64,000 bases of DNA, taken from assembly GCF_001427525.1 (NCBI RefSeq), contig NZ_LMGU01000001.1:2911760-2975759 (forward strand). The letters are read 5' to 3'. Below are positions 29,932-47,570 of this stretch, piece by piece. The stretch is from Microbacterium sp. Root61. Lineage in GTDB: Bacteria; Actinomycetota; Actinomycetes; Actinomycetales; Microbacteriaceae. Both the position numbers and the translations under genes were made by a program. How positions within the stretch are numbered: position 1 is the first letter of the stretch; each line of letters opens with the position of its first letter. The notes beneath the pieces were generated by a model that was not told where the DNA came from, ran no database searches, and worked only from the letters and a program-made list of their open reading frames with translations.

Positions 29932-30597
29932 ATGCCGGCCAGACGCACGTACGCAGAGCAGGGGGACGCCTGCGCGACGGCGCACGCCATCGAGCTGCTC
30001 GGCGACCGGTGGACCTATCCGATCGTGCGCGAGCTCATGCTCGCCCCCAAGCGCTTCGGCGAACTCGAGTCGGGGCTGCGCGGCATCACCCCGGCCGTCC
30101 TCACGGCGCGCCTGCGGACGCTCGAGACGACCGGACTCGTCCGGCGCGCGACCATCCCGCCGCCGTCGAACGTCGCGGTGTACGAGTTGACCGACTGGGC
30201 GCGCGAGCTCGAACCGACGCTCGCCGCGCTCGGCCGCTGGGCGCACGGATCCCCGACACGCACGATCGACGGTGCCGGGCTCACGCCCGACGGCGCGGTG
30301 CAGTCGATGACGAGCATGGCCCCCCGGGTCCCGGTCGAGCCCGCGATCGAAATGCAGCTGCATCTCTTCGACGCGCGCCTCGAGCGGCCCGTCGGGTACG
30401 ACTACGCCCTGTCGTGGGATCCAGCGGGGCTGCGGATCATCCGAGGGCGGAACCCGCTCGCGACCACGACGCTGCGCGCGGACTCCTCGGAGTGGGCCAT
30501 GATCCTGCACGCGGCGCAGCCGCTCGCCGGCTCCGGCGTCGAGGTCGAGGGCGACGTCGCGCTCATCGAGCGGATCGTCGCGCTGATCCAGGGGTGA
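29932..30597 (+). CDS. HxlR family regulator with C-terminal SCP2-like domain
   Basis: A 221-residue regulator. Residues 8-105 are the HxlR winged helix (CATAHAIELLGDRWTYPIVR, KRFGELESGLRGITPAVLTA). The rest (EMQLHLFDARLERPVGYDYA) resembles the SCP2-like C-terminal domain of the regulator at 27800. Start: ATG at 29932 with GGGGAA before it; an ATG three codons earlier is possible. Divergent from DUF899, which it probably controls through the palindrome at 29875. Confidence 0.87.
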   Translation: MPARRTYAEQGDACATAHAIELLGDRWTYPIVRELMLAPKRFGELESGLRGITPAVLTARLRTLETTGLVRRATIPPPSNVAVYELTDWARELEPTLAALGRWAHGSPTRTIDGAGLTPDGAVQSMTSMAPRVPVEPAIEMQLHLFDARLERPVGYDYALSWDPAGLRIIRGRNPLATTTLRADSSEWAMILHAAQPLAGSGVEVEGDVALIERIVALIQG

Positions 30598-32852: not shown

Positions 32853-34304
32853 TCAGCGCAGCTGGTCGGCGCGCACCCACGTGGCGTGGAAGCCCGACGG
32901 CACGCGCTGCGGCAGCTTGACGCGCGCAACCGGTGCGGCCTCGATGTCGTCGGCCGCGATGATGAGGATCTCGGACGTGCCCTCGATCTCGTCGGTCACG
33001 AAGGTCACCAGGTAGCCGTCGGTCTCGCCCTTCGAATTGTCGCGCGCAGCGAAGGGCGCTTCGGAGCCGTAGCGTCCCGCACCGAACTCGTGGGTCAGCT
33101 TCTGCCCGGTCGACGAGTCGAACTTGACGATGCCGTCGAACGCCAGCGTCGGCACGTTGGCGAGGCGCATGTTGTACGAATAGCGGTGGTTCTGCCCGAC
33201 GATGCGGCTGTCGATGCTGGGGAACTCCATGTTCTGGTCATCCAGCACACGCTCGGTGGTCTGGCCCGTGGCCAGATCGAACTCGTAGCGGTAGATCTGC
33301 GCGTCCAGTCGCATGTACGCGAGCATGCTGGCCAGCGGGTGATCGAACCTCGACTGGTGCTGCGGGTTCTTGACGCGGCACACGTCCATGATGACCTTGG
33401 TGCCCTCTTCCCACGAGTTGATCACGTGGTAGATGTAGCAGGGCTTGGCCTCGAACCACATCACATCGGCGTTCTGCCCGTAGCGGGGCAGCACCGCGAA
33501 GCGCGACACGAGCTCGCGGTCGTAGAAGATGCGGTACTTGCCGGCACGGCGGGCATCCTGGTCCTGCACGAGCGGGAGGTCCATCAGCACCGTGTAGTTG
33601 GTCGTGATGGCCATGTCGTGCGGCAGGCGGGGGCCGGGCAGGTCGATCTGGGCGAGGTGCGTCTGGGTGCCGTCGGGACCGATGATGCCGTACCGCATGA
33701 AGTCCATGTCGGGGCCGTAGTCGAACCACAGCAGCTCGCCGGTGCGCTCGTCGGCCTTCGGGTGCGCCATCATGTCGCCGGCGAACGTGCCGAGGAAGTC
33801 CTGCGCGCCGAGGGTCTCCAGCGACAGCGGATCGACGGCGTACGGGTCGCCGCACAGGTACCACGTGGCCAGCACCTGCCCGCGGTGGAAGATGACGTCG
33901 GTGTTGGCCGAGTCCTTGATGCCCAGGCCGTGGCCGTTGCCGAACGGATTGCCGGCCGGGTTCTCCATGAGCCCTGTCCACAGCGACTTGCCTGCGGCGG
34001 ACTCCGCCTCGAATGCCTTGGTGCGCACGTAGCGGTTGCGGTAGCGCACGCGCCCGTTCTCGAAGTGGACCGCATGGATCATGCCGTCGCCGTCGAACAT
34101 GTGGTACCGCCCGGGGGCGTCGAACTGGCGGTTGGGTCCGTTGCGGAGGTAGACGCCGTTGAGGTCCTTGGGGACCTCGCCGACGACCTCGAGGTCATCG
34201 AGCGTGAGCTCGGTGGCGACGGGCGCGTAGATCCCGAGCAGGTAGGGGTTGTCGATGTCGGATGCCGGCATCGCGACGGCGATCGGCGTGTCGGGGTTGG
34301 TCAT
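32853..34304 (-). CDS. Carotenoid/stilbene cleavage oxygenase
   Basis: Non-heme iron dioxygenase of the carotenoid oxygenase family, 483 residues. Family members split a conjugated carbon double bond of a carotenoid, apocarotenoid or stilbene into two aldehydes or ketones. The four iron-binding histidines are all present: His181 (MMAHPKADE), His229 (RLPHDMAI), His293 (YIYHVINSW) and His473 (SGFHATWV). YLRNGPNRQFD is the typical N-terminal blade motif. There is no signal peptide. Its ATG overlaps the stop of the PaaN-type dehydrogenase (ATGA), so the two are made together, suggesting that the dehydrogenase oxidises the aldehyde released. The substrate class is not decided by sequence. Confidence 0.9.
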   Translation of the reverse strand: MTNPDTPIAVAMPASDIDNPYLLGIYAPVATELTLDDLEVVGEVPKDLNGVYLRNGPNRQFDAPGRYHMFDGDGMIHAVHFENGRVRYRNRYVRTKAFEAESAAGKSLWTGLMENPAGNPFGNGHGLGIKDSANTDVIFHRGQVLATWYLCGDPYAVDPLSLETLGAQDFLGTFAGDMMAHPKADERTGELLWFDYGPDMDFMRYGIIGPDGTQTHLAQIDLPGPRLPHDMAITTNYTVLMDLPLVQDQDARRAGKYRIFYDRELVSRFAVLPRYGQNADVMWFEAKPCYIYHVINSWEEGTKVIMDVCRVKNPQHQSRFDHPLASMLAYMRLDAQIYRYEFDLATGQTTERVLDDQNMEFPSIDSRIVGQNHRYSYNMRLANVPTLAFDGIVKFDSSTGQKLTHEFGAGRYGSEAPFAARDNSKGETDGYLVTFVTDEIEGTSEILIIAADDIEAAPVARVKLPQRVPSGFHATWVRADQLR

Positions 34305-35992
34305 TTCAGGACCGGTCCTTTGCTGTTTCGGGCTGGGCGGCGGGACTGCGTGATCCGATACCGTCCGGCGATGAATGACTCGTCGGTGAGGGTGGCGTTG
34401 CCGGCCGGGTTCAGGCCGGAGACGTGGAAGTCGCTGAACGCCGCCGAGAAGTTGATCGGCATCGCGCCGGTGACGTTGATCGTGAGGGCGGCGCCGGCCT
34501 CGGCGTAGGCGTCGATCGCGTCGTCGATGAGGTCTTCGTCGGTGGAGTACAGGAACGCCGAGATGGCGCCGTGGGTGCGGGCGTCGCTCGTGGCCTGCTG
34601 CAGTCCGGCGCGCGCGTCGGGGGTGCGGATGAGGAAGACCACGGGGCCGAAGCACTCGCCGCCGCGGCGCTCCTGGTCGTCCTGGTCGATGAAGGCGACC
34701 AGCGGCGTCAGGGTGCGGGCAGCGGGGAAGTCGGCGTGCGGGTACGGGACGGCCGGGCGCACGACCGCGTCGCCGAGGCTGCCGGCGAGGGCGGCGACGT
34801 CGGTCACCGTGCGGTCGGACTGGATGGCCCCCATCACCGCGCCGGCGCGACGCGGTGCGTCGGCGATGTCGCTGATCGCGGCCGTGAGGCGCTGGGCGAA
34901 CTCGTCGGGGGAGAGGATGCCGTCCGCGGTGCGGATGCCCGTCTCGGGCACGTAGATGTTCTGCGGTGCGGTGCACATCTGGGCGGAGAAGAGCCCGACC
35001 GCGCCGGCGATGGCGCGGATGCTGCGCCCTTCGTCCTCGAACGAGTCGATCACGACGGCATTGACGCCGGAGGTCTCGGTGTAGACGCGGGCCTGGGTGG
35101 CGTTCGCCTCGATCCACGACCCGAAGCCGGCGGATCCGGTGAAATCGACGATGCGGGTGCGGGGGGCGGTGACCAGCTCCTGCGTGTTGGGCGTCTCCAT
35201 GGAGTCGGTCGCCAGCAGGACGGCATCCGCATCGACGCCGTACGCGACGAGGACCTCGCGCATCGTGCGCACCGCGAGGGCCATCTGCAGCACCGAGCTG
35301 GGGTGGGGCTTGAGGACGACGGGGTTGCCTGTGGCGAGGTTGGCCAGGACGGCGGGGTACACGTTCCAGGCCGGGAAGCTGGCACAGGCGACGACCGCGG
35401 CCGTGCCCAGCGGCACCAGTCGGTAGCTCTTCTCCAGAGCGACGGTCGCATCGCCGAACACGCCGGTCCACTCCGCCGTCCGCGGCGCGCGGCTCAGGGC
35501 CTCGTGCGCCATCGCGACGGCTTCGAGTCCGCGGTCCAGCGCGTTCGTTCCGCTGCCGGACAGGCTCATGCCGCGCCCCTGGCCGGTGGTGTGCATGGCG
35601 GCGACGCCGAGCAGGTTGTTCTGGGCGAACAGGCGCTCGATGATCGCGACGCACAGGGCGATGCGCGTCTCGGGGTCCAGCCGCGCGAGCGAGGGTGACG
35701 CCTGCTGTGCAGCATCCAGCAGCTCTTCGACGCGGGCGCGCGGGTACGAGATCCGCAGCGGTTCCCGCGTGTACGGCGAGACCTCGTCGGTCTGCAGGGT
35801 CGGGATGCCGGGGTGCCCGACGAGCTCGAGGGTGCTGCCCTGGAGGGTGGTGAACTCGGCCACGGCCTCGTCCCAGGTGGGACCCTCGGGGACGGCTCCG
35901 GTGAAGGCGCTCCACGATTCGCGGGTGCGCAAGGCTGCCAGGGCCTGTCCGAGGAGGTCGCCGCTCGGGGACGCGTCGTCGCGCTGTGTCAT
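34301..35992 (-). CDS. PaaN-type aldehyde dehydrogenase
   Basis: A 563-residue aldehyde dehydrogenase of the PaaN group. The N-terminal 130 residues (ESWSAFTGAVPEGPTWDEAV, AMHTTGQGRGMSLSGSGTNA) are special to PaaN. The NAD-binding core follows (AWNVYPAVLANLATGNPVVL), and Cys340 in FSAQMCTAPQN is the likely nucleophile. PaaN is named for phenylacetate pathways, but no paaABCDE genes are here. ATG at 35992 follows TACAGT by 7 bases. That hexamer lies inside the GGTACTGTAAACC element, so regulator binding would block this leaderless promoter. Co-translated with the carotenoid oxygenase. Confidence 0.87.
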   Translation of the reverse strand: MTQRDDASPSGDLLGQALAALRTRESWSAFTGAVPEGPTWDEAVAEFTTLQGSTLELVGHPGIPTLQTDEVSPYTREPLRISYPRARVEELLDAAQQASPSLARLDPETRIALCVAIIERLFAQNNLLGVAAMHTTGQGRGMSLSGSGTNALDRGLEAVAMAHEALSRAPRTAEWTGVFGDATVALEKSYRLVPLGTAAVVACASFPAWNVYPAVLANLATGNPVVLKPHPSSVLQMALAVRTMREVLVAYGVDADAVLLATDSMETPNTQELVTAPRTRIVDFTGSAGFGSWIEANATQARVYTETSGVNAVVIDSFEDEGRSIRAIAGAVGLFSAQMCTAPQNIYVPETGIRTADGILSPDEFAQRLTAAISDIADAPRRAGAVMGAIQSDRTVTDVAALAGSLGDAVVRPAVPYPHADFPAARTLTPLVAFIDQDDQERRGGECFGPVVFLIRTPDARAGLQQATSDARTHGAISAFLYSTDEDLIDDAIDAYAEAGAALTINVTGAMPINFSAAFSDFHVSGLNPAGNATLTDESFIAGRYRITQSRRPARNSKGPVLK

Positions 35993-35996
35993 GATC

Positions 35997-36009
35997 GGTA
36001 CTGTAAACC
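35997..36009. promoter_or_regulatory. GGTACTGTAAACC operator copy at the PaaN promoter
   Basis: Matches the two arms of the palindrome at 36564-36588 (GGTACGGTAAAC and GGTACCGTAAAA). It covers the -10 hexamer of the dehydrogenase/oxygenase operon. A shared regulator is likely; TetR-type proteins use operators of this size, but none is encoded here. Confidence 0.65.
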
Positions 36010-36045
36010 GAGTCAGGTCGAAAGGCAAGTGCCGACGACGGGGCG

Positions 36046-36498
36046 TCAGCTCAGCAGCTGGGTGCAGCGGAACAGCGCGATCGTCCGTCCGGCCTCGTCG
36101 GCGACGGTGGCATCCCAGATCTGCGTCCGTCGCCCACCGTGCACCAACTCGGCGACTGCGGTGACGGTCCCCTCGCGGGCGGTGCCCAGATAGGACGTCT
36201 TCAGCTCGAGGGTCGCGAAGCCGGTCGCCGATGCGGGCAGCAGTAGGCGGCAGCCCAGGCCGCAGGCCGTGTCGGCGAGGGCCACGACGCTGCCGGCGTG
36301 CAGGCGCCCGTTCGGTGCGAGCTGGGCGGAGGTGACCGGCATCGTGGCGGTGAGGCGCGGCGGCTCCCACGCGGTCACCTCGATGCCCAGCACTCCGGGA
36401 AGCCGGCCGGCCAGCAGCGCGGTGAGCTCGGCGGGAGTCGGCGGATTCTCGCGGGTGCCCGGGGTCGCGCGCGGCGAGCGGTCGTCGTTCAGGGGCAT
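36046..36498 (-). CDS. PaaI-like hotdog-fold acyl-CoA thioesterase
   Basis: A 150-residue hotdog protein. AQLAPNGRLHAGSVVALADT carries the family motif (Asn, Gly and His near the CoA sulphur, then Asp), and TLELKTSYLGTAREGTVTA is the central strand pair. It hydrolyses aromatic or medium-chain acyl-CoA, rescuing CoA from dead-end intermediates. ATG at 36498 has GGAGG at good spacing; an in-frame TTG four codons earlier is possible. It is divergent from the acyl-CoA ligase with a palindrome in the gap. Confidence 0.88.
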   Translation of the reverse strand: MPLNDDRSPRATPGTRENPPTPAELTALLAGRLPGVLGIEVTAWEPPRLTATMPVTSAQLAPNGRLHAGSVVALADTACGLGCRLLLPASATGFATLELKTSYLGTAREGTVTAVAELVHGGRRTQIWDATVADEAGRTIALFRCTQLLS

Positions 36499-36563
36499 GC
36501 CAACCTCCAAGGGAAGGCGATGTCCTGGCCGAGAAGGCGGTCAGCACTGACCTTCGCTGCTAT

Positions 36564-36588
36564 GTTTACCGTACCTTTTTACGGTACC
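36564..36588. promoter_or_regulatory. TACCGTA-N6-TACGGTA palindrome between thioesterase and CoA ligase genes
   Basis: A perfect 7-bp inverted repeat (36567-36586) whose extended arms read GGTACGGTAAAC and GGTACCGTAAAA on the minus strand. It lies in the divergent promoter region 20 bases before the ligase start. A single-arm copy is at 35997. Confidence 0.72.
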
Positions 36589-36604
36589 GCAGAAGGGCTC
36601 TCCC

Positions 36605-38077
36605 ATGTACGTGCACGATGTCCTGGCCCGCGCCGCCGCCGACCACTCCGACGCTCTCGCCGTCGAAGGACCCGATGGGTCGCTGAGCTTCGCCGAGCTC
36701 TGGGCCCGCGCTGAGGGGCTCGCCGCCCACTTGCAGTCGACCGGGCTGCGCCCCGGGGACGTCGTGCTGGAGGCGCTGCCGAACAGCGCCGCACTGCTGG
36801 TCAGCGACTTCGCGCTGTCTCTGGCCGGGCTCGTGCGCGTGCCGCTGAATCCGCGGCTGGGTCTGCGCGAGTGGCGTGCGATCGCCGCCGACAGCGGAGC
36901 ACGCGCGTTGATCGGCACGGCGATCGATCCCACTGGCGTCGACGTGCCCCTGATCGAGATGGCGGCGGCGCCCGCCGCGCCGCCCGTCGGCTTCCGCCCG
37001 ACGCCGAGCGAGATCGCCGGCCTGGCGTACTCGTCCGGGACGACAGGGCTGCCCAAGGGCGCCGTGCGCACCCACCGGATGCGGCTGGCCTCCGCCGCCG
37101 CGATGCGCGACAGCGTGATCGGCGCCGGCATCACGGACGACGCGGATGCCGCGGCATCCGTCTATCTGCACGCCGGTCCCGCGATCCACACCTCCGGGCT
37201 GTTCGTGCTGCCGATGCTCGCGCTCGGCGTGCCGCAGCTCATGCTGGACCACGCGCGACCCGCCCAGATCATCGACACCATCCGCACCCGGCGGGTCAGC
37301 CATCTCGCGGTCGTACCGACGGTGCTGAGCGCGCTCGCCGCCGTCGACGGCGTGAGCCGCGCGGACTTCGCGAGCGTGCGGATGCTCGCCTACGCCGGCT
37401 CGCCGATCCCGCCGGCCCAGCTCGCGCTCGCCTACGAGCGGCTGACGCCGGCGCTGGTGCAGTATTACGGCCTGGTCGAGGCGATGCCGCCGCTCTCGGT
37501 GCTGTCGGCGGCCGATCACGCGGCGGGCCTGGCGGCGCACCCCGAGCTGCTGCGCTCGGCGGGTCGGATCGTCCCGTCCGTCCAGATGCGCAGCGAGGAC
37601 GGCGAGATCCTCGTGCGCGGGGATGCCGTGACCCCCGGCTACCGCAATGCGGAGACCCGCACCGATCTCGGCAAGAGCGTCCGCGACGGATGGCTGCACA
37701 CCGGCGACGTCGGCCGCATCGACGGAGACCGTCTGTGGCTCACCGACCGCCGCTCCGACATGATCATCAGCGGCGGGTACAACATCTATCCGTCCGAGCT
37801 CGATGTGGTCGCCGCCGCGGTGCCGGGCGTGGACGGATGCGCCGCCGTCGGTCTTCCCGACCCCGTGTGGGGGCAGCGGCTCGAGCTGGCCTACTCCGGG
37901 GATGCGGCGGTCGACGACATCGCCGCCGCATTCGGTGATCTGCCGCGCCACAAGCAGCCCAAGGCGATCACCCGCCTTGACGCCCTGCCGCTCGGCGCGA
38001 CGGGCAAGATCGACCGTCGTGCGGTCGCCGTGCTGCTCGCGGAGCGCGCCGAAGCCCGGCCAGTCGAGTCCGCATAG
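36605..38077 (+). CDS. Acyl-CoA synthetase (AMP-binding, class I adenylate-forming)
   Basis: Activates a carboxylic acid to its CoA thioester through an acyl-AMP. The protein is 490 residues: ATP-loop LAYSSGTTGLPKGAV near residue 140, acid-binding region YGLVEAMPPLS, GWLHTGDVGRIDGDRLWL, the hinge RRSDMIISGGYNIYPSELD and the catalytic lysine in GATGKIDR near the end. GAAGGG precedes the ATG. It is divergent from the hotdog thioesterase, and the tandem HxlR regulator begins 9 bases downstream. The acid may be the product of the oxygenase and dehydrogenase. Confidence 0.92.
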   Translation: MYVHDVLARAAADHSDALAVEGPDGSLSFAELWARAEGLAAHLQSTGLRPGDVVLEALPNSAALLVSDFALSLAGLVRVPLNPRLGLREWRAIAADSGARALIGTAIDPTGVDVPLIEMAAAPAAPPVGFRPTPSEIAGLAYSSGTTGLPKGAVRTHRMRLASAAAMRDSVIGAGITDDADAAASVYLHAGPAIHTSGLFVLPMLALGVPQLMLDHARPAQIIDTIRTRRVSHLAVVPTVLSALAAVDGVSRADFASVRMLAYAGSPIPPAQLALAYERLTPALVQYYGLVEAMPPLSVLSAADHAAGLAAHPELLRSAGRIVPSVQMRSEDGEILVRGDAVTPGYRNAETRTDLGKSVRDGWLHTGDVGRIDGDRLWLTDRRSDMIISGGYNIYPSELDVVAAAVPGVDGCAAVGLPDPVWGQRLELAYSGDAAVDDIAAAFGDLPRHKQPKAITRLDALPLGATGKIDRRAVAVLLAERAEARPVESA

Positions 38078-38086: not shown

Positions 38087-39007
38087 GTGACCACTCCACC
38101 GCTCGCCCAGGCGATGCTCACCCTCGGTGACCAGTGGAATCTGCTGATCATCCAGCAGGCGATGCTCGGCAAGGCGCGCCGCTTCTCGCAGTGGCGGGAT
38201 CTTCTCGGTCTGTCCGACAGCGTGCTCTCGGATCGACTGAAGGAACTGCTGGCTGCCGGGATCCTGCGCCAGCAGGAGTACAGCGATGCCACGCGTCGCC
38301 GCGAGGAGTACTTCCTCACCGACCGTGGCCTCGCGCTGTGGGGCCTGCTGGTCACGCTGTGGTCGTGGGAGCAGCAGTGGGCCCAGGCCCACGAGGCGAC
38401 CTGGATGCTGCGGCACGAGGTCTGCGGAGCGAGCATGGTGCCGGAGTTCGGCTGCGGCGCGTGCGGTACCCATCCGGTGACCGCGCACGACACCGAGAGC
38501 ACCGACCGTTCGGCAGGCGAGATCGTCGCCGGTCCGCGCGGTCGGCACCACCGCCGCGCGGTGCGCGCGCCGGACGCACAGATCCCGTGGACTTATCACG
38601 AGGAGACCTTCGCGATCATCGGCGACCGATGGAGCACGCTCCTGCTCGGCTCGTGCTTCCTGCGGGTGCGCAGCTTCGCGGCATTCCGGGAGACGCTCGG
38701 GATCGCACGCTCGGTGCTGTCCGAGCGCCTGCGGCTGTTCGTCGAGCTCGGCGTGCTGCAGGTGCAGGTCGGCCAGGACCGTCGCGAGCGCGACTACCGC
38801 CTCACCGAGAAGGGGCGCGCGTTCTTCCCGGTGTTCGCGATGATGGTCGACTGGGCCGAGACGTGGCTCGGCGAGGACACCGAGGCGCGCGACCTGCTGA
38901 TCGTGCATCGCGGATGCGGCCGCCAGCTGCAGCCGGCCCTGTTCTGCCCGTCGTGCGGCGACCGGATCGAGCGCACCGACATCCGCTTCGAGCCGACCGC
39001 GGCCTGA
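38087..39007 (+). CDS. Tandem HxlR regulator with two H-C-C-C zinc-finger-like motifs
   Basis: A 306-residue regulator built as an internal duplication. Repeat 1 (residues 1-130) has a HxlR winged helix (LTLGDQWNLLIIQQAMLGKA, VLSDRLKELLAAGIL) and then H-x2-C-x9-C-x2-C (HEVC...CGAC). Repeat 2 (about 175-300) has FAIIGDRWSTLLLGSCFL, VLSERLRLFVELGVL and again H-x2-C-x9-C-x2-C (HRGC...CPSC). The motifs look like structural zinc sites. One chain could mimic the usual HxlR dimer. GTG follows TAGGAT by 6 bases, inside the ligase gene end, so it can also be made alone. It probably controls the catabolic genes around it. Confidence 0.87.
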   Translation: MTTPPLAQAMLTLGDQWNLLIIQQAMLGKARRFSQWRDLLGLSDSVLSDRLKELLAAGILRQQEYSDATRRREEYFLTDRGLALWGLLVTLWSWEQQWAQAHEATWMLRHEVCGASMVPEFGCGACGTHPVTAHDTESTDRSAGEIVAGPRGRHHRRAVRAPDAQIPWTYHEETFAIIGDRWSTLLLGSCFLRVRSFAAFRETLGIARSVLSERLRLFVELGVLQVQVGQDRRERDYRLTEKGRAFFPVFAMMVDWAETWLGEDTEARDLLIVHRGCGRQLQPALFCPSCGDRIERTDIRFEPTAA

Positions 39008-39013: not shown

Positions 39014-40063
39014 TCAGCCGATCGGCGTGCTCCGGATCTCGGCGGCGGCCTCGAGCCCGGCCGACAGGAACGGGAGCACGGCATCGCCGGCGCTGTCGAA
39101 GCCGGGACCGCTGCCCGAGCCCGCGCGCCGACGATGGTCGATGCCGGCCGCGATCACCGCGATCTTGAACCGGGCTAGCGCCAAGTGGAACGCCCAGTCC
39201 TCCAGAGGTGCGCCGCCCTCGGCCTCGTACTCGGCGGCCAGCGCCCCGGCCGAAGGCAGGGTCGCGGCGGTCCAGGCGGTCGGACTGCCCAGGATGAGAT
39301 CGAGCGCGGGATGCCGGTACGCGCACATCATCGCGACATCGGCGACGGGGTCGCCGATGGTCGACAGCTCCCAGTCGACGACCGCGAGCACGCGCGGGGT
39401 CGGGCCGAGCTGCAGCAGCGTGTTGTCGACGCGGTAGTCGCCGTGCACGATCCCGGTCGAGCGCTGTCGGCCGGGCATCGCCTGCTGCAACCGGGCGATC
39501 AGCGCGGCGGCGGCATCCGTCGTCTCGGCGTCGGGAGTGGCCACCAGCTCCCACTGGCCGCTCCAGCGTCGCAGCTGGCGCTGGGCGTAGCCGTCGGGGC
39601 GGCCGAAGTCGGCGAGACCGGCGGCGACATGGTCGACCCGGTGGAGCGCCGCCAGGGTGCGCACCAGCTCGGTCATCGCCGCGGTGCGGGTCGGTTCATC
39701 CAGAGCGAGGAGGTCGTCCTCGGTCTGGATGGACGCACCGCTGACGAAGGCCGCGACCGCGAAGGGGCCGCCCACCACCGTCTCGTCGGTGCAGAAGACG
39801 ACGGCCTCGGCCACCGGCACGGGCGTGCCCTGCAGCGCACGGGTGACCCGGAACTCGCGGCCGACATCGTGCGCGGAGGGGGTCCGTCCGCTCCGCGGCG
39901 GCATCCGCAGGACCCAGGCGCGCGCGCCGTCGTCGAGGCGGAAGGTGAGGTTGGACCGGCCGCCGGTGATCAGCGTCGCCGCCAGCGGTCCCGCCGTCTC
40001 GGTGCCGTTCGCCTCGAGGACCTCCCGGATGCGGCCGAGTTCGGTAGGGGTGAGTTCCGTCAT
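39014..40063 (-). CDS. APH-like phosphotransferase family protein (acyl-CoA dehydrogenase associated)
   Basis: A 349-residue kinase-fold protein of the aminoglycoside phosphotransferase family. The nucleotide-binding lobe has LITGGRSNLTFRL and the catalytic motifs are VHGDYRVDNTLL and AVVDWELSTIGDPVAD. Proteins of this branch sit beside or fused to acyl-CoA dehydrogenases (as in ACAD10/11), where they phosphorylate 4-hydroxyacyl-CoA before dehydration. That makes a 4-hydroxy acid intermediate possible in this pathway. Its ATG overlaps the stop of the acyl-CoA dehydrogenase gene (ATGA). Confidence 0.88.
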   Translation of the reverse strand: MTELTPTELGRIREVLEANGTETAGPLAATLITGGRSNLTFRLDDGARAWVLRMPPRSGRTPSAHDVGREFRVTRALQGTPVPVAEAVVFCTDETVVGGPFAVAAFVSGASIQTEDDLLALDEPTRTAAMTELVRTLAALHRVDHVAAGLADFGRPDGYAQRQLRRWSGQWELVATPDAETTDAAAALIARLQQAMPGRQRSTGIVHGDYRVDNTLLQLGPTPRVLAVVDWELSTIGDPVADVAMMCAYRHPALDLILGSPTAWTAATLPSAGALAAEYEAEGGAPLEDWAFHLALARFKIAVIAAGIDHRRRAGSGSGPGFDSAGDAVLPFLSAGLEAAAEIRSTPIG

Positions 40064-41280
40064 CGTGCCGCTTCCGCGTCCCGACGGGCCTTCCCCAGTG
40101 CCCGACGTGCGATCGACCAGCGGTGCACCTCGGAGGCGCCGTCGTAGATGCGGAACGGCCGCAACTCGCGGGCGACCCGGGCGATGGGCAGCTCCGCAGA
40201 GACCCCCAGGCCACCGCACATCTGCATCGCGCGGTCGGCGACGCGGCCGAGCGCTTCGGCCGCGAAGGTCTTCGCGATCGACGTCGAGGTCGCCCCGCGT
40301 CCGCCCGCGTCGAGCTCGGCGCACGCCTCGCGCAGCAGTGCGCGCGTGGCGGCCAGATCGATCTCGCTGTCGGCGATCGCCTGCTGCGTCATGCCGAGGT
40401 CGCCGAGACGCGACCCGAACATCTCGCGTTCGTTCACGTAGGTCAGGGCGGTGTCGTGCGCGCGGCGGGCGGCGCCGAGCCACCGCATCACGTGTGTCAT
40501 CCGCGCCGGTCCGAGACGCACCTGCGCGTACGCGAAGCCTTCGTCCGCGCCGCCGAGGACGTCCTCGTCCGGGACGAACACATCCTCGAACGTGACCTCG
40601 CAGTGACCGCCGAGCGAGGCGCGGTCGATCGTGGCGATGTGGCGCACGACGGTGATGCCGGGGGTGTCCGCGGCGGCGAGCAGCATGGTCGCGCCGGACA
40701 GATCCCCGGGTTCGCCTGCGGTGCGGGCCATGATGATGAAGAACCCCGCGCCATCCGCGCCGGTGATGAACTGCTTGCGCCCGTTGACGAGCCAGCCGCC
40801 GTCCACCCGCGTGGCGCGCGTGCGCAACGCCGAGGGGTCCGAGCCGGCACCGGGGGAGGGCTCGGTCATCGCGAACGCCGAGCGCAGCTCGCCGCGCACC
40901 AGCGGTCCGAGGAAGCGCTCCGCCTGAGGCGGCGTCGCCAGCTTCTCCAGCAGGTGCATGTTGCCCTCGTCCGGGGCCTGGATGTTCAGCGCCACCGGCC
41001 CGAACAGCGAGTACCCCGCGGCCTCGAACACGGGGGCGCGGTCGAGCATGTTGAGCCCGAGGCCGCCGAGTGCGACCGGGGCGTGCGGCGCGAACACGCC
41101 GGCATCCTTCGCAGCGCCCTGCAGTCGCACGCGCAGCTCATCTCCGCCCGCAGCAGCGATGTCGCCGTCGTGCAGGTCGTCGAGCGGCAGCACCGTCGTG
41201 CGGACGAACGCCGTTGTGGCCGCCGTGATCTCGGCGACGGAGCGGGCAGGGGTCGAAGATGCGAGATCGGATGCCGACAT
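40060..41280 (-). CDS. Acyl-CoA dehydrogenase (ACAD10/11-like)
   Basis: FAD enzyme of 406 residues that introduces the alpha-beta double bond in acyl-CoA or, in this subgroup, removes a 4-phosphate. The FAD/substrate motifs are FAMTEPSPGAGSDPSAL and KQFITGADGAGFFIIMARTA; QMCGGLGVSAELPIARVARE and IYDGASEVHRWSIARRAL form the C-terminal site. The pairing with the downstream phosphotransferase is the same as in mammalian ACAD11, where both domains are one chain. Start overlaps the SDR stop by one base (TGATG). Confidence 0.92.
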   Translation of the reverse strand: MSASDLASSTPARSVAEITAATTAFVRTTVLPLDDLHDGDIAAAGGDELRVRLQGAAKDAGVFAPHAPVALGGLGLNMLDRAPVFEAAGYSLFGPVALNIQAPDEGNMHLLEKLATPPQAERFLGPLVRGELRSAFAMTEPSPGAGSDPSALRTRATRVDGGWLVNGRKQFITGADGAGFFIIMARTAGEPGDLSGATMLLAAADTPGITVVRHIATIDRASLGGHCEVTFEDVFVPDEDVLGGADEGFAYAQVRLGPARMTHVMRWLGAARRAHDTALTYVNEREMFGSRLGDLGMTQQAIADSEIDLAATRALLREACAELDAGGRGATSTSIAKTFAAEALGRVADRAMQMCGGLGVSAELPIARVARELRPFRIYDGASEVHRWSIARRALGKARRDAEAAR

Positions 41281-42053
41281 CACACGCCTCCTCTCAGCAG
41301 GATGCCGCCATCGACGACGAGGGTCTGCCCCGTCGTCCAGGACGCCTCGTCGGACAGCAGGTAGACGACGGCGGACGCGACATCCTCCGGGACGCCCAGT
41401 CGGCGCATCGGGTACCCGGCCGCGAGGGCTTCCTCGCCCGACTCGTACAGCTTCTCCGCGAACTGCGTCTTGACCACCGCGGGGGCGACGGCGTTGACGC
41501 GGATCCCCGGCGCCAGTTCCACCGCGAGCTGCTCGGTCATGTGACGCAGCATCGCCTTGCTCGCCCCGTAGAAGCCGATGCCCTGCGCCGGGCGCAGGCC
41601 GGCGACCGACGAGACGTTCACGATCGCGCCGCCGTGCTCGCGCATCCAGCCGCGGTACACCTCCTGCGCCCACCCGAGTGTCGCGAGGCAGTTGACCTCG
41701 ACGATCTTGCGCGCAGCAGCGAGGTCGAGGTCGATCATGGGTCCGTACACGGTGTTGATGCCGGTGTTGTTGACGAGCATGTCGATGCCGCCGAAGCGTT
41801 CGATCGCGGTCGCGACCACGGCGGCGCGGTGCTCGGCGTCATCCGCCCGCCCGGCGATGCCGATCGCGTACTCTTCGCCGCCCAGGGCATCGACCGCGCG
41901 GGCCAGACCCTCTTCGTGGCGGGCGGTGATCACGACTCGGGCGCCCTCGGAGACCAGCCGCTCGGCGACGGCGAAGCCGATGCCGCGGCTGGCTCCGGTG
42001 AGCACGGCGGTGCGCTTCGCGAACCTCGCCGTCGGAGGAGTGGGAGCTGTCAT
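41280..42053 (-). CDS. Short-chain dehydrogenase/reductase
   Basis: A 257-residue SDR. The cofactor loop is TGASRGIGFAVAERL, NNTG marks the core, and the catalytic Ser-Tyr-Lys is in VSSVAGLRPAQGIGFYGASK. It probably oxidises a hydroxyacyl-CoA or alcohol with NAD(P). It leads the operon SDR, acyl-CoA dehydrogenase, phosphotransferase. ATG at 42053 was chosen because the family start (RFAKRTAVLTGASRG) lies ten residues later; the longer upstream frame would run through the promoter region and is rejected. AGAGAGG lies upstream. Confidence 0.9.
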   Translation of the reverse strand: MTAPTPPTARFAKRTAVLTGASRGIGFAVAERLVSEGARVVITARHEEGLARAVDALGGEEYAIGIAGRADDAEHRAAVVATAIERFGGIDMLVNNTGINTVYGPMIDLDLAAARKIVEVNCLATLGWAQEVYRGWMREHGGAIVNVSSVAGLRPAQGIGFYGASKAMLRHMTEQLAVELAPGIRVNAVAPAVVKTQFAEKLYESGEEALAAGYPMRRLGVPEDVASAVVYLLSDEASWTTGQTLVVDGGILLRGGV

Positions 42054-42116
42054 GGATCGATCCTCTCTGCGCCGCGTCGTCGCGGGCAACCTGCAGAGCG
42101 ACGCGCGAACCCGACT

Positions 42117-42139
42117 GACTCTGCTAGTTGTAGCATAAT
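42117..42139. promoter_or_regulatory. Inverted repeat TGCTA-GTTG-TAGCA in the SDR/oxidoreductase divergent promoter
   Basis: TGCTAGTTGTAGCA (42122-42135) lies between divergent genes, followed by TAAT typical of a -10 on the plus strand. Preceded by GACTC, it reads ACTCTGCTA-N4-TAGCA. The minus strand before 47520 carries ACTCTGCTA-AGTG-CAG, a related site, suggesting one regulator for both. Confidence 0.6.
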
Positions 42140-42182: not shown

Positions 42183-43145
42183 ATGACTTCATTGACTGAT
42201 CTGCGGGTGCCCGTCATCGCGGCGCCGATGTTCCTGATCTCGGGACCGGAGCTGGTCATCGCGGCCTGCCGCGCCGGCATCGTCGGATCGTTCCCGACGC
42301 CGAACTGCCGCACGGTGGAAGACCTCGACCGCTGGATGACGCAGATCGTCGAAGAGCTGGATGCGGCCAAGGCCGCCGGGGAGGACGTCGCCCCGTGGGC
42401 GGTCAACCTCGTCACCCACAGCACCAACGGACGCCTCGCCGACGACCTGGCTATGGTCGCGAAGCACCGTCCGCCCATCGTGATCACGGCACTGGGGTCG
42501 CCGAAGCCGGCGATCGAGACCGTCCACGCCTACGGCGGCATCGTCATCGCCGACGTCGTCAGCATCGGACTGGCGCGCAAGGCCGTCGCCGCCGGTGCCG
42601 ACGGACTGGCGTGCGTCTCGGCGGGTGCCGGTGGCCATACCGGGCACCTGTCGCCGTTCGCGTTCGTCGCGGGTGTGCGCGAGTTCTTCGACGGCATCGT
42701 CGTGGTCGCGGGCGGCATCGGATCCGGCGCCTCGATCGCGGGTGCCGTGACGACCGGTGCCGACCTCGTCTACGTCGGTACGCGCTTCCTCGCGACGACC
42801 GAGAGCATGGCGGCGACCGAGTACAAGGACATGGTCGTGCAGTACGGGGTGGACGACCTCGTCGTCACGCCCGCCGTCACCGGGACGGATGCCTCGTGGC
42901 TGAAGCCGAGCCTGATCGCCAACGGCTACGATCCGGCCGTCCTGGCAGCTCCGGCCGAGCGCAACTACGACGGCGCCACCGATGTGCAGGGGCGCTGGAA
43001 GGACATCTGGGCCGCCGGCCAGAGCATCGAGGTCATCCGTGCCGTCGAGCCGGTCGCTGACGTCGTCGACCGGCTCGCCGAGGAGTTCACCGCCGCCCTC
43101 GACCGGACCGCCGCCCGGTACGGGGTGCTCGCGCCGCGCGCGTAG
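42183..43145 (+). CDS. NAD(P)H-dependent flavin oxidoreductase / nitronate monooxygenase family
   Basis: A 320-residue FMN TIM-barrel protein of the 2-nitropropane dioxygenase-like family. VPVIAAPMFLISGPELVIAA begins the barrel, VSAGAGGHTGHLSPFAFV and VVAGGIGSGASIAGAVTTGA are the FMN-phosphate loops. The His after AGAGG fits the catalytic position of nitronate monooxygenases, but members in CoA pathways act as enoyl reductases or unknown flavoenzymes. ATG at 42183 has GAGAGGA upstream; an ATG at 42138 would lie in the promoter. Divergent from the SDR operon and ended by a strong terminator. Confidence 0.87.
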   Translation: MTSLTDLRVPVIAAPMFLISGPELVIAACRAGIVGSFPTPNCRTVEDLDRWMTQIVEELDAAKAAGEDVAPWAVNLVTHSTNGRLADDLAMVAKHRPPIVITALGSPKPAIETVHAYGGIVIADVVSIGLARKAVAAGADGLACVSAGAGGHTGHLSPFAFVAGVREFFDGIVVVAGGIGSGASIAGAVTTGADLVYVGTRFLATTESMAATEYKDMVVQYGVDDLVVTPAVTGTDASWLKPSLIANGYDPAVLAAPAERNYDGATDVQGRWKDIWAAGQSIEVIRAVEPVADVVDRLAEEFTAALDRTAARYGVLAPRA

Positions 43146-43222: not shown

Positions 43223-44452
43223 TCAGGCCGAGGCGGCCTCGCCCACGACGAAGGTGACGGTCGTGGCGGTCGAGCCGCCGAAGTTCAGGGTCGCCATCGT
43301 CTTGGCGCCCTCGATCTGGTACTCGCCGGCACGGTCCGAGACCTGCAGGGCAGCATCCAGCAGCATCCGCACGCCGCTCGCGCCGACCGGGTGTCCGCCG
43401 CCGATGAGGCCGCCGCTGGGGTTGATCGGGAGAGCGCCGCCCAGGCGGATGGTGCCCTCCTCGACGGCCTGCCAGGACTGCCCCGGCGCCGTGAGTCCGA
43501 TGTGGTCGATCGCGAGGTACTCGCTCGCCGAGAAGCAGTCGTGCGTCTCGAGGCCGTGGAGGTCCTCGAGGCCGACGTGTGCGCGCGCGAACGCGTCGTC
43601 CAGCGCCTGCTTCACGTGCGGCATGACGTACGGGTTCTCGGCATCGCGGGCCAGCTTCGCGTCGATCCCGATGCCGACCGTGCGATGACCCCAGCCGCGG
43701 ATGACGCCGATGGGGCGGGCGTCCGGGTGGGCGCGCAGGTACCGGTCGGTGACCAGCACGACGCCGGCACCGCCGTCGGTCATCTGGCTGCAGTCGTAGC
43801 GCCGGAGGCGTCCCTCGACGAGAGGGTTGACCGCGTCATCCGATCCTGTGGCGATGAGATCGGGCACGTCCCACCCGCGCGTCTGCGCGAGCGGGTTGCG
43901 CTTGGCGTGGTCGAGATTGAGCTGCGAGATCATGTGCAGGTGACGGTCGTCCAGGCCGTAGCGGCGGTCGTACTCGTCCGCCACGCGGGCGAACATGTAC
44001 GGCCACATGAACTTCGCGTCCTGGCCCTCGTGTCCGGTCCACGCGGCCGCACCGAGGTGGCCGGCTCCGACGTCGCCGGGCACGGTCTTCTCCAGCTCGA
44101 CGCCCACCACGAGCGCGGAGTCGTAGTCACCGGCGCGGAGGTCGGCGATCGCGCTCAGCAGGGCGATCCCGCCCGAGGCGCACGCGGCTTCGTGCCGCGA
44201 CGAGGGGGTGCCCCACAGCTCGTCGTGCACCGTCGCCGGCATCGCGCCGAGGTGCCCCTGGTGCGCGAACAGCTCGCCGAAGGCGTTGCCGACGTGCACC
44301 ACGTCGATGCCGTTGCCCGCGGTGCCGGCGTCGCGGAGCGTGCCGTCGACCACCTCCCGGGTCAGGTCGGCGAAGTCGAGGCCCTCGCGCGTGTAGTTGC
44401 GGGCGAAGTCGGACTGGTAGCCGCCCAGGATCCAGATGTTCTCGCGGGTCAT
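43223..44452 (-). CDS. SCP-x/SCP2-type thiolase
   Basis: A 409-residue thiolase of the sterol-carrier-protein-x type, acting on branched or cyclic 3-oxoacyl-CoA. The nucleophile is the Cys in RHEAACASGGIAL; the second half has THDCFSASEYLAIDHIGL, whose Cys sits in the HDCF motif of this subfamily, and the His in GGGHPVGASGVRML. It ends with FGGSTATTVTFVV. The gene lies 14 bases after the second thiolase in the operon ligase, thiolase, thiolase. SCP-x thiolases often serve steroid or terpenoid side-chain degradation. Confidence 0.9.
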   Translation of the reverse strand: MTRENIWILGGYQSDFARNYTREGLDFADLTREVVDGTLRDAGTAGNGIDVVHVGNAFGELFAHQGHLGAMPATVHDELWGTPSSRHEAACASGGIALLSAIADLRAGDYDSALVVGVELEKTVPGDVGAGHLGAAAWTGHEGQDAKFMWPYMFARVADEYDRRYGLDDRHLHMISQLNLDHAKRNPLAQTRGWDVPDLIATGSDDAVNPLVEGRLRRYDCSQMTDGGAGVVLVTDRYLRAHPDARPIGVIRGWGHRTVGIGIDAKLARDAENPYVMPHVKQALDDAFARAHVGLEDLHGLETHDCFSASEYLAIDHIGLTAPGQSWQAVEEGTIRLGGALPINPSGGLIGGGHPVGASGVRMLLDAALQVSDRAGEYQIEGAKTMATLNFGGSTATTVTFVVGEAASA

Positions 44453-44466: not shown

Positions 44467-45648
44467 TCAGAAGCTCTCGATGACGACGGCCATCGACACG
44501 CCCAGGGCGGCCGGGATGACCAGGAGTCCGTAACCGCCGCCGGAGCGCCGCAGCAGGTCCATCGCGTTGGCCAGCAGGATGCCGCCGGTGGCGCCGAGCG
44601 GGTGCCCGACCGAGACGCCGCCGCCGTGGACGTTCACCTTGTCGGCGGAGATGCCGAGCTCGCGCATGAGTAGCAGCGGGGTCACGGAGAACGACTCGTT
44701 GAACTCCGCCACGCGGACGTCCTGGATGCCGATGCCGGCCTTCGCCAGCGCGCGGCGGGCCGCCTCGGCGGCACCGTCCAGGCGCGGCGAGCGGGCGGCG
44801 GTGTGCGCCCACGACACCACGCGACCCAGCGGTTCGCGTCCCATGGAGCGGCCCGCCTCGGCCGAGCCGATCACGATGGCGGATGCCGCGTCGCTCAGCT
44901 GCGGCGCCGTCGCGACGGTGTGCAGCCCGGCGCTCGGGCGGCTGAACCCCGGGAAGCGGGCCTCCACGCGCGCCCACAGGGGGTCGTCGCCGAAGAGCGG
45001 GGCGAGGGCGGCCAGGCCCTCCGCGGTCGTGTCGGGACGGGCGCCCTCGTCGGTGCGCAGGATCACCTCGCCGTCGACGCGCACCGGCACGATCGACTCC
45101 CACTCCGGCGCCGCGGCCGCGCGCAGATGCGATTGCACGGCGTAGGCATCGAGCTCTTCGCGGCTGAAGCCGTGCTCGGCGGCGGTGAGGTCGGCCGAGA
45201 CGCCGATCGTGACGAAGCCGGTCAGCTCGCCGAGCTCGGCATCCGTCGCCAGCGTCGGCTTGTCGCTGAACATCGGCACCCGCGAGAGCGACTCGGCGCC
45301 GCCCGCGACGACGAGGTCGGCCTGGCCCGAGCGCACCTGCGCGGACGCCGACGCGATCGCATCCAGTCCCGAACAGCACATCCGCGACACGATGCCCGCG
45401 GGCACAGTGTCGGGCCACTCGGCCGCCATGATCGCCACGCGGGCGAGGTCCGTAGCCTGCTCGGCAGCGGGGGTGTTGACCCCGATGACCACGTCGTCGA
45501 CGCGCTCCGCGGGAAGCCCCCGCGTGCCGAGCTCACGAAGGAGCTGTGCCAGCAGTTCGTACGACGGCACTCCGGCGAGTGTTCCCCCGCCGCGTTTGAC
45601 CCGTCCCCGCGGCGTGCGGACGGTGTCGTAGATGAATGCCTCACTCAC
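44467..45648 (-). CDS. Acetyl-CoA C-acyltransferase-like thiolase lacking the second active-site cysteine
   Basis: A 393-residue thiolase. The acylated cysteine is present in SRMCCSGLDAI (Cys92), as is the His of GHPLGATG. The usual Asn-Glu motif reads NESFSV. The last strand, where classical thiolases have C-x-G-G-G, instead reads GLLVIPAALGVSMAV with no cysteine after the His. This cysteine is the general acid/base, so normal Claisen chemistry would be impaired. It may act with the neighbouring SCP-x thiolase as a heteromer or have altered activity. SD-like spacing and codon use are normal, so it does not look like a pseudogene. Confidence 0.88.
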   Translation of the reverse strand: MSEAFIYDTVRTPRGRVKRGGGTLAGVPSYELLAQLLRELGTRGLPAERVDDVVIGVNTPAAEQATDLARVAIMAAEWPDTVPAGIVSRMCCSGLDAIASASAQVRSGQADLVVAGGAESLSRVPMFSDKPTLATDAELGELTGFVTIGVSADLTAAEHGFSREELDAYAVQSHLRAAAAPEWESIVPVRVDGEVILRTDEGARPDTTAEGLAALAPLFGDDPLWARVEARFPGFSRPSAGLHTVATAPQLSDAASAIVIGSAEAGRSMGREPLGRVVSWAHTAARSPRLDGAAEAARRALAKAGIGIQDVRVAEFNESFSVTPLLLMRELGISADKVNVHGGGVSVGHPLGATGGILLANAMDLLRRSGGGYGLLVIPAALGVSMAVVIESF

Positions 45649-45713: not shown

Positions 45714-47438
45714 TCAGGCGACGGGCGCGGTCAGCGACTCGCGCAGGTCGCGCTTGAGCACCTTGCCCACGGGGTTGCGCGGCAGCACGTCGCGCACCTC
45801 GAGGCGCTCCGGCAGCTTGAACGAGGCGAGCTGGTGGCCGCGGAGCAGCTCCACGATCGACTCCAGCGTGGGCGCGGTGTCCGGACGCGGCACCACGATC
45901 ACCGCGATCCGCTCGCCGAGCGCGTCGTCGGGGTAGCCGACGACGGCGACGTCCATCACGTCCGGGTGATCGGAGATGTGCGCCTCGAGCTCGGCCGGAG
46001 CCACGTTCATCCCGCCGCGGATGATGATGTCCTTCGCGCGGTCGACGTAGCGCAGGAACTGCCCCGTCTGGCCGGCGATCTCGAACATGTCGCCGGTCTT
46101 GAGGTAGCCCTCCTCGTCGAACGGGGTGTTGAGGTTGGCCATGTCCGCGTAGCCGGGGAACACGTGCGGTCCCGCGATGTGCAGCTCGCCCGCCCGGCCG
46201 TGCTCGGTGATGACCTCGCCGGTCTCGAGGTCGACCAGCTTGACCTTGATCCAGTCGCCCACGCGCGAGGACCAGTGCGCGCCCTCGGCGCCGTAGCGCG
46301 GGAAGAACAGGGCGCGCTCGTCCGGGTCGGGGAAGTCCTCGGAGCTGGAGAGCAGTGCGACGCCCTCGTTCGAGCCGAAGAAGTTGATCACGCTGAGGCC
46401 GAACCGCTCCTGCCAGCCGCGCACCATCGCGGGCTGCAGCGGCGCGGACCCGGAGCCGATCCGGGTGAGGCTGCTCAGGTCGATCCGGCTGAGCAGCTCT
46501 TCGTTGTTCAGCAGCATCCACAGCATCGCCGGGGGAGCGAGCGTGTACGTGACGCGCTCCACGGCGATCTGGCGGAAGAAGGTCGGTGCGTCGAACGGGT
46601 GGTGCTGCACGAGGGCCGCACCCGAGCGCAGCCACGGGAGCATCATGCCGCAGATGCCGGCCATGTTGATCATCGGGAACGGGTTCAGCAGCACGTCCTC
46701 GGCGATGACGCGCGGGGCATCCAGCGTCGCCCAGCTGAATGCGAGCCAGTCGTAGTGGGCGCGCATGACGCCCTTCGGCAGGCCTTCGGTGCCCGAGGTC
46801 CAGCAGATGGTGACGCAGTCGTTCGGGTCGTTCGGGTGCGCGGCGCGGTAGGCCTCGACGGCGGCCGCATCCGCTGCGGTGGCCGCAGCCGGCGTCAGGT
46901 CGATGACGTCCTCGCCGAGCGGCTGGTCGCCCGTGTCGAAGCAGAAGACGGTGCGCACGGTGGTGCCGCGCGTGAGGCGCGCGATGTCTTCGGCGGGTGC
47001 GCGATCGGCGAAGCGGCGCGCGGCCACGACGACGTCGAAGGCCGCCCCGCGGCTCATCTGGCCGATCTCGTTCTCGCGGTACTGCATCGCCAGCGGCGAG
47101 ACCGCGGCGCCGATCGTCCAGGCCGCAAGGTACAGCTCGGCGAGTTCGATCGAGTTCAGCAGCTGGGCGCCGATGAGGTCGCCGCGTCCGACGCCGTGCT
47201 CAAGCAGACGTGCGGCCAGCGCCGTCACCTCGCTGCCCAACTCGCCCCAGGTGAGGCGGCGGGGCTCGTTGCCGTCGAGATCGACGCGGTTGGCGGGGTC
47301 GACGATCGCGAGCTTGTCGGCGCGCTCGGCGACCTGCCCGCGGAAGATCCCGTCGATGGTCTCGGCGGTCCACCATCCCTTGTCGGTGTACTCGCTGACC
47401 CGCGCATCCGGGTGCAGACGGTCTCGACGTTCAATCAC
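45714..47438 (-). CDS. Acyl-CoA synthetase (AMP-binding)
   Basis: Class I adenylate-forming CoA ligase, 574 residues. The phosphate loop is ICWTSGTEGLPKGVM, followed by NFFGSNEGVALL, GYLKTGDMFEIAG, DIIIRGGMNVAPAELE and the catalytic lysine in NPVGKVLKRDL. GTG at 47438 follows AAGGAGG and a 5-base spacer; the longer frame would read an Arg run from a tandem repeat and is rejected. It heads the operon with the two thiolases. The acid substrate is unknown; together with the ligase at 36605 it gives the island two separate activation steps. Confidence 0.92.
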   Translation of the reverse strand: MIERRDRLHPDARVSEYTDKGWWTAETIDGIFRGQVAERADKLAIVDPANRVDLDGNEPRRLTWGELGSEVTALAARLLEHGVGRGDLIGAQLLNSIELAELYLAAWTIGAAVSPLAMQYRENEIGQMSRGAAFDVVVAARRFADRAPAEDIARLTRGTTVRTVFCFDTGDQPLGEDVIDLTPAAATAADAAAVEAYRAAHPNDPNDCVTICWTSGTEGLPKGVMRAHYDWLAFSWATLDAPRVIAEDVLLNPFPMINMAGICGMMLPWLRSGAALVQHHPFDAPTFFRQIAVERVTYTLAPPAMLWMLLNNEELLSRIDLSSLTRIGSGSAPLQPAMVRGWQERFGLSVINFFGSNEGVALLSSSEDFPDPDERALFFPRYGAEGAHWSSRVGDWIKVKLVDLETGEVITEHGRAGELHIAGPHVFPGYADMANLNTPFDEEGYLKTGDMFEIAGQTGQFLRYVDRAKDIIIRGGMNVAPAELEAHISDHPDVMDVAVVGYPDDALGERIAVIVVPRPDTAPTLESIVELLRGHQLASFKLPERLEVRDVLPRNPVGKVLKRDLRESLTAPVA

Positions 47439-47467
47439 GGTGGCCTCCTTGCCGTTTGAGATCCCGC

Positions 47468-47491
47468 GACGTCGACGTCGACGTCGACGTC
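47468..47491. repeat. Four perfect tandem copies of palindromic GACGTC
   Basis: Each 6-base unit is its own complement, so the tract can fold or bind a symmetric protein. It lies in the divergent leader between the CoA ligase and the tandem HxlR regulator, 30 bases from the ligase start, and could affect ligase mRNA translation or be slippage-prone. Confidence 0.8.
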
Positions 47492-47516
47492 GGAGTGTGG
47501 GGGATGTGGGAGCGAC

Positions 47517-47537
47517 CATACTGCACTTAGCAGAGTG
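47517..47537. promoter_or_regulatory. CTGC-ACTTA-GCAG inverted repeat, second copy of the ACTCTGCTA element
   Basis: CTGCACTTAGCAG (47521-47533) lies between the ligase operon and the HxlR-like regulator. Its minus strand reads ACTCTGCTAAGTGCAG, sharing ACTCTGCTA with 42118-42126. Likely operator of the regulator at 47571. Confidence 0.6.
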
Positions 47538-47570
47538 ACTTCAAGCAGAGATGCTCGATAAGCTCGGAAA

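Follow-up and report, generated by a model that had tools for sequence, protein, structure and literature searches.

The regulators HxlR, YodB and HypR of B. subtilis and QsrR of S. aureus belong, by sequence matches, to the same winged-helix family as REG1, the protein studied here. As described in PMC7835342, HxlR/DUF24 proteins dimerise via helices 1 and 5 and have a conserved cysteine, Cys11; their N-terminal cysteine senses oxidants or formaldehyde. Sensors of this group are chains of about 100-130 residues that possess the N-terminal cysteine and have no ribbon, whereas REG1 contains two units per chain and both REG1 and its neighbour REG2 are devoid of such a cysteine. The same paper also describes a single chain HxlR-cpYFP-HxlR; that construct is engineered, whereas the tandem HxlR proteins considered below are natural fusions.

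PA1607/BosR (PDB 2f2e) and PA1374 (PDB 4gcv) resemble REG1 in that an HxlR core is followed by a three-strand appendage. Unlike REG1, they have one unit per chain, keep the N-terminal cysteine, and the ribbons in 2f2e and 4gcv are without ligands. PA1607 has been tied to biofilm growth (PMC9611778). The solved structure 2f2e aligned over 142/142 residues, the appendage included. SarS of Staphylococcus (PDB 1p4x) belongs to a different family, MarR/SarA; its single chain likewise contains two winged helices but is not known to have ribbons. It produced a weak whole-length Foldseek row (283 columns, TM-score 0.21, E 0.0098, rmsd 15.9) and was not among the 15 sequence matches at E 0.01.

Two HxlR units in one chain

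REG1 is encoded, from a GTG start, in a stretch of 64,000 nucleotides of Microbacterium sp. Root61 (hereafter, the window), amid a cluster of genes for a putative oxygenase, thiolases and acyl-CoA ligases (Table 1). The Pfam HxlR profile PF01638 matches REG1 in two stretches (103.6 bits in total against a curated cut-off of 20.8), and the exact pattern H-x2-C-x9-C-x2-C occurs at residues 110-126 and 274-290. Since residues 1-150 align with residues 151-306 at 29.5% identity over 122 residues (E 1.3e-19), the repeat is a real internal duplication. An earlier note, made from the sequence, had described each half as an HxlR winged helix followed by this motif; the profile search, the motif scan and the half-half alignment all agree with that description. 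The predicted structure, which is confident in both halves (pLDDT 92.3, pTM 0.91), bears out the domain order wHTH-ribbon-wHTH-ribbon. Each motif sits on a ribbon-like three-strand set, and the H-x2-C and C-x2-C pairs fall at the ends of predicted strands, the layout of a zinc ribbon being one with ligand pairs at turns.

A second regulator of the same plan, REG2, is located 8.6 kb downstream of REG1 and is 37% identical to it over 296 residues; its predicted structure has a pTM of 0.89. We infer that such pTM values would be hard to attain for either model if the two halves rotated freely relative to each other. The REG1 start lies 10 bases past the stop codon of the upstream AMP-binding ligase gene, and this spacing suggests that the two genes are probably co-transcribed as one operon. 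The RPE65-type oxygenase of the cluster has its nearest relatives among enzymes that cleave carotenoids and lignostilbene. Upstream of the cluster (window positions 27800-28513 and about 29940-30597) are two single HxlR genes that lack the finger, so that the window has four HxlR genes in about 21 kb, and an iron-dependent repressor gene (DtxR type, with a FeoA domain) is located just past the cluster (51608-52243).

Table 1. Features of the REG1/REG2 cluster in window coordinates.
Feature	Coordinates	Strand	Basis
RPE65-type carotenoid/stilbene cleavage oxygenase	32853..34271	-	
Aldehyde dehydrogenase, PaaN-like (below that model's cut-off)	34301..35992	-	
Hotdog thioesterase (4HBT)	36046..36498	-	
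Putative element at promoter P1, ahead of the AMP-binding gene and REG1: perfect inverted repeat TACCGTA-N6-TACGGTA	36567..36586	.	
AMP-binding acyl-CoA ligase, directly upstream of REG1	36605..38077	+	
REG1, tandem HxlR regulator, 306 aa	38087..39007	+	ORF, profile, predicted structure, half-half alignment
REG1 first HxlR winged helix, residues 1-100	38087..38386	+	profile, predicted structure
REG1 first ribbon motif, H110-C113-C123-C126	38414..38464	+	motif scan, alignment; predicted strands 106-110, 120-123, 136-140
REG1 second HxlR winged helix, residues about 171-265	38597..38881	+	profile, predicted structure
REG1 second ribbon motif, H274-C277-C287-C290	38906..38956	+	motif scan, alignment; predicted strands 270-274, 283-286, 299-303
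APH-type phosphotransferase	39014..40063	-	
Acyl-CoA dehydrogenase (start provisional)	40060..41373	-	
SDR oxidoreductase	41280..42053	-	
Conserved box TGACTCTGCTAGTTGTAGCA, between divergent SDR and FabK-like/NMO genes (promoter P2)	42116..42135	+	
FMN enoyl reductase / nitronate monooxygenase-like (NMO, FabK-like)	42183..43145	+	
Thiolase-like protein (Thiol_like; NCBIfam NF004936, above cut-off)	43223..44452	-	
Acetyl-CoA C-acyltransferase (thiolase)	44467..45648	-	
AMP-binding acyl-CoA ligase (true start probably downstream of first ATG)	45714..47519	-	
Conserved box TCACTCTGCTAAGTGCAGTA, between AMP-binding gene and REG2 (promoter P3)	47519..47538	-	
REG2, tandem HxlR regulator of 325 aa with both ribbon motifs	47571..48548	+	motif scan, predicted structure, alignment to REG1

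Ribbons, sensor cysteine and spread of the tandem lineage

The matches listed in a protein search with REG1 included 48 tandem homologues besides REG1 itself (P0003-P0050; P0002 is the window's own protein and is not counted). Both strict motifs are present in 40 of them, one in 7 and none in 1, so the motif pair of REG1 is not a chance occurrence; loss of the motif in homologues was an outcome that the earlier note had named as speaking against its proposal. Searching with a profile of the unit yielded 119 further tandem homologues among the best 120 of 6,414 matches. These more distant proteins have both strict motifs in 81 cases and one in 38, the single-motif cases often arising from an N-motif histidine that lies one residue nearer the cysteine. 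When ligands were scored by alignment column in 217 tandem proteins, a set that includes close kin and in which some proteins may have been entered twice (as P and L entries), and with a histidine displaced by up to two columns counted as present, all four were found in 211/217 N ribbons and 196/217 C ribbons; the remaining ribbons (6/217 and 21/217) have three. In four of the 27 ligand replacements (P0176, P0177, P0174 and L018), Cys and His stand in for one another. A metal site would allow swaps of this kind, and the most likely content of each His-Cys3 ribbon is one structural zinc. At two Caulobacter loci (L041 and L044), each ribbon of the tandem HxlR protein is short of one ligand.

The earlier note had regarded the finger as normally absent from HxlR proteins, and this part of it fell: all 71 fetched single-HxlR loci keep the finger (22/22 from Actinomycetota and 49/49 from a genome-contig scan), these loci having come from queries that included the finger; the share among all HxlR proteins is lower. 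An appendage, though ligand-less, is present also in 2f2e. The finger was consequently rejected as a novelty of REG1. It is missing in both single HxlR proteins of the window and in P0054-P0056.

The N-terminal sensor cysteine of HxlR/DUF24 proteins behaves differently in single and tandem proteins. Counted by alignment column, since the anchor is missing in 20/217 N halves, it is present in 73/77 singles compared with 20/217 N halves and 7/217 C halves. The first cysteine of REG1 is residue 113 and that of REG2 is residue 137. Thus, both halves of the tandem lineage have mostly lost the sensor cysteine, and REG1, an HxlR protein by profile, falls on its sequence outside the cysteine-defined thiol/aldehyde-sensing HxlR/DUF24 group. 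The 20 N halves that keep the cysteine are those of P0049, of ten second copies of alphaproteobacterial loci and of nine other proteins (P0060, P0061, P0064, P0071, P0072, P0083, P0123, P0133 and P0145). The second copies are tandem HxlR genes located 5-10 kb from the first one (L042, L043, L053, L057, L058, L059, L063, L068, L070 and L071); in all ten, the N-half cysteine is kept and one cysteine of the C ribbon is lost.

The tandem plan is widespread and not unique to REG1: it is found in REG2 and in at least 167 listed proteins, with Caulobacteraceae, Steroidobacteraceae, Gammaproteobacteria and Streptomyces among the names in the matches listed. Full tandem matches were present in at least 8 of 396 Actinomycetota genomes (its own included) and at least 13 of 398 Pseudomonadota genomes (the centre genome included), both counts being lower bounds obtained with at most five candidates scored per genome. 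No match at E 1e-20 was found among 37 relatives, including 22 from the same genus, and the REG1 gene is therefore accessory in this genus. In the matches listed, tandem proteins of about 280-340 aa carry generic names only ("DNA-binding HxlR family transcriptional regulator", "(winged) helix-turn-helix regulator"). No description of the two-domain plan, the ribbons, the cysteine loss or the gene context of tandem HxlR proteins was found in the open-licence literature searched. The statement in the earlier note that no well-described family has this plan thus stands as far as that literature goes; as to the plan itself, REG1 turns out to have a great deal of company.

A tree was built from the N and C halves of 36 tandem proteins (out of 62 diverse ones taken from 217) together with 26 singles (out of 35 diverse ones taken from 77); the search was a quick one, and 43 of 95 inner branches are open. 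In this tree, N halves group with N halves and C halves with C halves across phyla. The N and C labels require two changes each, against a mean of 29 for shuffled labels, and none of 500 shuffles gave a value as low. Only P0060 departs from this grouping. The separate N and C groups fit one old duplication, perhaps with a second for P0060. A recent duplication giving rise to REG1 and REG2 was rejected, since the two fall in different sub-branches of the tree.

Gene neighbourhood and DNA elements

The 13 neighbours of the tandem genes in the window served as the only probes for the surroundings of tandem genes in other genomes. As can be seen from the counts below, tandem genes lie near RPE65-type oxygenase and thiolase genes in two phyla, a gene set presumably for the breakdown of fats or terpenes. 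At loci of at least 15 kb (23 of 31 alphaproteobacterial tandem loci and 38 of 49 single-HxlR loci), an RPE65 gene is near the tandem gene in 19/23 cases, a thiolase-like gene in 17/23 and a FabK-like gene in 14/23, while each of the three occurs at 0/38 single-HxlR loci; RPE65 is missing at 4/23 tandem loci. Aldehyde dehydrogenase, thioesterase, kinase and acyl-CoA dehydrogenase genes were found at 0/23 of these tandem loci, and the recurrence of the window cluster there is thus partial. Thiolase, thiolase-like and/or RPE65 genes are nearby at all seven actinobacterial tandem loci (thiolase at three, two of which also have thiolase-like; RPE65 at four, three of them with thiolase-like) and at none of 10 single-HxlR controls of the phylum. 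An even draw from Pseudomonadota gave 13 tandem regions from 12 genomes, with RPE65 in 10, thiolase-like in 8 and FabK-like in 7 of them; all three are missing from two regions (L162 and L164). Seven arbitrary control regions from seven of the same genomes contained none of the three. This draw overlaps the alphaproteobacterial set by at least one genome, since L154 and L057 apparently come from the same one. No description of the RPE65-oxygenase/thiolase gene set was found.

Two further arrangements are recorded here as observations. At L221 (genome G1068), an RPE65 gene 66% identical to that of the window is divergent from a REG1-like tandem gene, which is followed by an AMP-binding gene (53% identical); of the loci seen, this one comes nearest to the REG1 side of the cluster. 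At L219 (G1048), REG1-like and REG2-like genes are adjacent and convergent, together with RPE65, a thiolase-like gene and a box, described below, with three mismatches.

Candidate operators were sought in the DNA itself. Short words common to promoters P2 and P3 were within chance, and only a longer, 20-base box stood. It derives from a stretch that precedes the thiolase-like/RPE65/REG2-like operons of G074, G109, G360 and G396, four genomes from a single family; these genomes have one further near match, in G360. The window has two matches at three mismatches or fewer (positions 8-9 of the pattern having been widened after the window sites were seen), compared with none in 100 shuffles. At the same threshold, the organism's own 4.02 Mb genome has three sites, and the reversed pattern has one. 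The third site (L175, C1:2206092-2206111, two mismatches) is far from the cluster and not at a cluster gene; roughly 150 bases separate it from the probable start of a flavin-reductase-like gene (PF01613), a possible third member of the regulon.

Across 394 genomes of the class, 17 box sites with two or fewer mismatches were found in 17 genomes besides its own. Fifteen of them are at a thiolase-like gene, an RPE65 gene or both, and the genomes concerned span five families (f17, f19, f21, f102 and f118). In all 15 of these genomes, a full tandem regulator is found no more than 4 kb from the box, the match in G1083 containing an internal stop. In the two genomes with the box away from the operon, no tandem regulator was found. 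Four of the 15 genomes are the discovery set and 11 are new; 11 of the 15 belong to one genus, g22. All 14 genomes of g22 in this draw without the box were also searched: seven keep the thiolase-like gene at 71-73% identity, followed by RPE65 (L210-L216), and at these seven operons no tandem gene is present within the 12 kb fetched and the box is absent upstream, the best match having 7-9 mismatches. The association of the box with an adjacent regulator gives one-sided Fisher values, which ignore relatedness, of 5.9e-6 (15 vs 7), 3.1e-5 (11 new vs 7) and 2.9e-4 (7 new vs 7 within g22). A reversed control pattern produced 25 matches over the same genomes, versus 19 for the box pattern, so only the position of the real sites, and not their count, is informative. 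A REG1-like tandem gene does occur in one of the 14 box-less g22 genomes, G1122, on a different contig.

In the 18 aligned box sites, a core ACTCT-N2-TA-N2-TGTAGTA is nearly fixed. The symmetry is partial, with ACT-N11-AGT outside and little inside. Regulators compared at five box loci are REG2-like (44-49% identity to REG2). These sequence data support the box as a candidate operator of REG2-type regulators; the evidence concerns REG2-like regulators and not REG1.

Alternatively, the box might belong to the core promoter or the leader of the thiolase operon, or be bound by some unrelated regulator, with the tandem HxlR protein acting elsewhere or only on its own gene. The box does sit shortly upstream of start codons, and its 3' bases AGTA-C/G-CGT are partly kept at the same place in the regulator-less operons. 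We nevertheless consider this explanation unlikely: in seven of seven genomes the same operon, when no tandem regulator adjoins it, has no box; the window has the box at two promoters, one of which is that of REG2; and at L222 the box lies between divergent regulator and thiolase-like genes.

Two other elements were not carried further as evidence. The inverted repeat at P1 is the one striking element within 35990-36600, the stretch that the earlier note had put forward for a DNA-binding check; the box, which does have support from comparison of genomes, is at two different promoters of the cluster. It has no second copy in the genome at one mismatch or fewer and was not seen upstream of REG1-type genes at L121-L123 or L221. 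Its pattern gives at least one match at three mismatches or fewer in 14 of 100 window shuffles, while the real match has no mismatches. A promoter and terminator scan of 36400-36700 found nothing. As a REG1 operator, the repeat is left as an unproven lead. A palindrome, CCTTGACAAGG, upstream of Phenylobacterium-type tandem genes and near their start (L042-L071; exact at 8 of 31 loci and with one mismatch at 5 more) was dropped, because the -35 hexamer TTGACA falls inside it and because these loci are closely related to one another.

Proposed mode of action

Taken as a whole, the reading that we favour, and that we hold to be somewhat more probable than not, is that of a single-chain HxlR pseudo-dimer, a local metabolite-responsive regulator of an oxygenase-thiolase cluster, with REG2 acting on the box. 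Two HxlR-ribbon units would have been fused long ago, founding a widespread, unnamed lineage of one-component transcriptional regulators. One chain may then provide both wing-helix readers, where ordinary HxlR proteins form a homodimer to do so, and each unit would be closed by a His-Cys3 ribbon, most likely with one structural zinc. Since the sensor cysteine is mostly gone, the signal is probably a metabolite of the pathway, for example a CoA thioester or a substrate or product of the neighbouring oxygenase, and not thiol stress or formaldehyde. The genes controlled would be those of the local cluster, encoding the RPE65-type oxygenase, thiolases, ligases and enoyl reductase. For REG2, the most likely target is the 20-base box at P2 and P3, and for REG1 a related or a different site, perhaps at P1. 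The results behind this scheme are the domain plan, its conservation, the lost cysteine, the neighbouring genes and the pairing of box with regulator; zinc, the geometry of the pseudo-dimer, the signal, the sign of regulation and the operator of REG1 are proposals.

A bolder version of this scheme, which we advance tentatively, is a natural pseudo-heterodimer in which an old fusion left the two halves free to diverge. One chain would read a 20-base operator of imperfect symmetry (ACT-N11-AGT on the outside, a core that is asymmetric); with cysteine sensing lost from both halves, it would sense an intermediate of an RPE65-oxygenase/thiolase catabolic pathway, and pathway and regulator would have travelled together between Actinomycetota and Pseudomonadota.

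The pseudo-dimer reading presumes two functional readers. REG1 could instead work as an ordinary HxlR protein with a single DNA-binding winged helix, the other one having degenerated into a domain for dimerisation or ligand binding, as the divergence of the halves to 29.5% identity and the more frequent loss of one ligand from C ribbons (21/217) than from N ribbons (6/217) might indicate. We think this improbable, given that R214 and L215 of the recognition helix are kept in 94-100% of both halves, so that both probably still bind DNA, and that the structure prediction is confident in both. That the ribbons themselves are the sensor, REG1 being zinc- or thiol-responsive and metal release under stress changing its DNA binding, would accord with ligands nearly invariant in both halves and with ribbon cysteines being the main conserved ones left once the usual cysteine was mostly lost, yet is quite improbable in our opinion, since PA1607 and PA1374 keep the appendage without ligands and the appendage can therefore be purely structural.

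For the family, a large set of generically annotated regulators can be assigned a domain plan and a gene neighbourhood, and one branch of it also a candidate DNA site. An HxlR lineage can, after fusion, shed its textbook sensor cysteine almost wholesale. The oxygenase-thiolase gene set is common to actinobacteria, Caulobacteraceae and sphingomonads, and its substrate could be found through the regulator.
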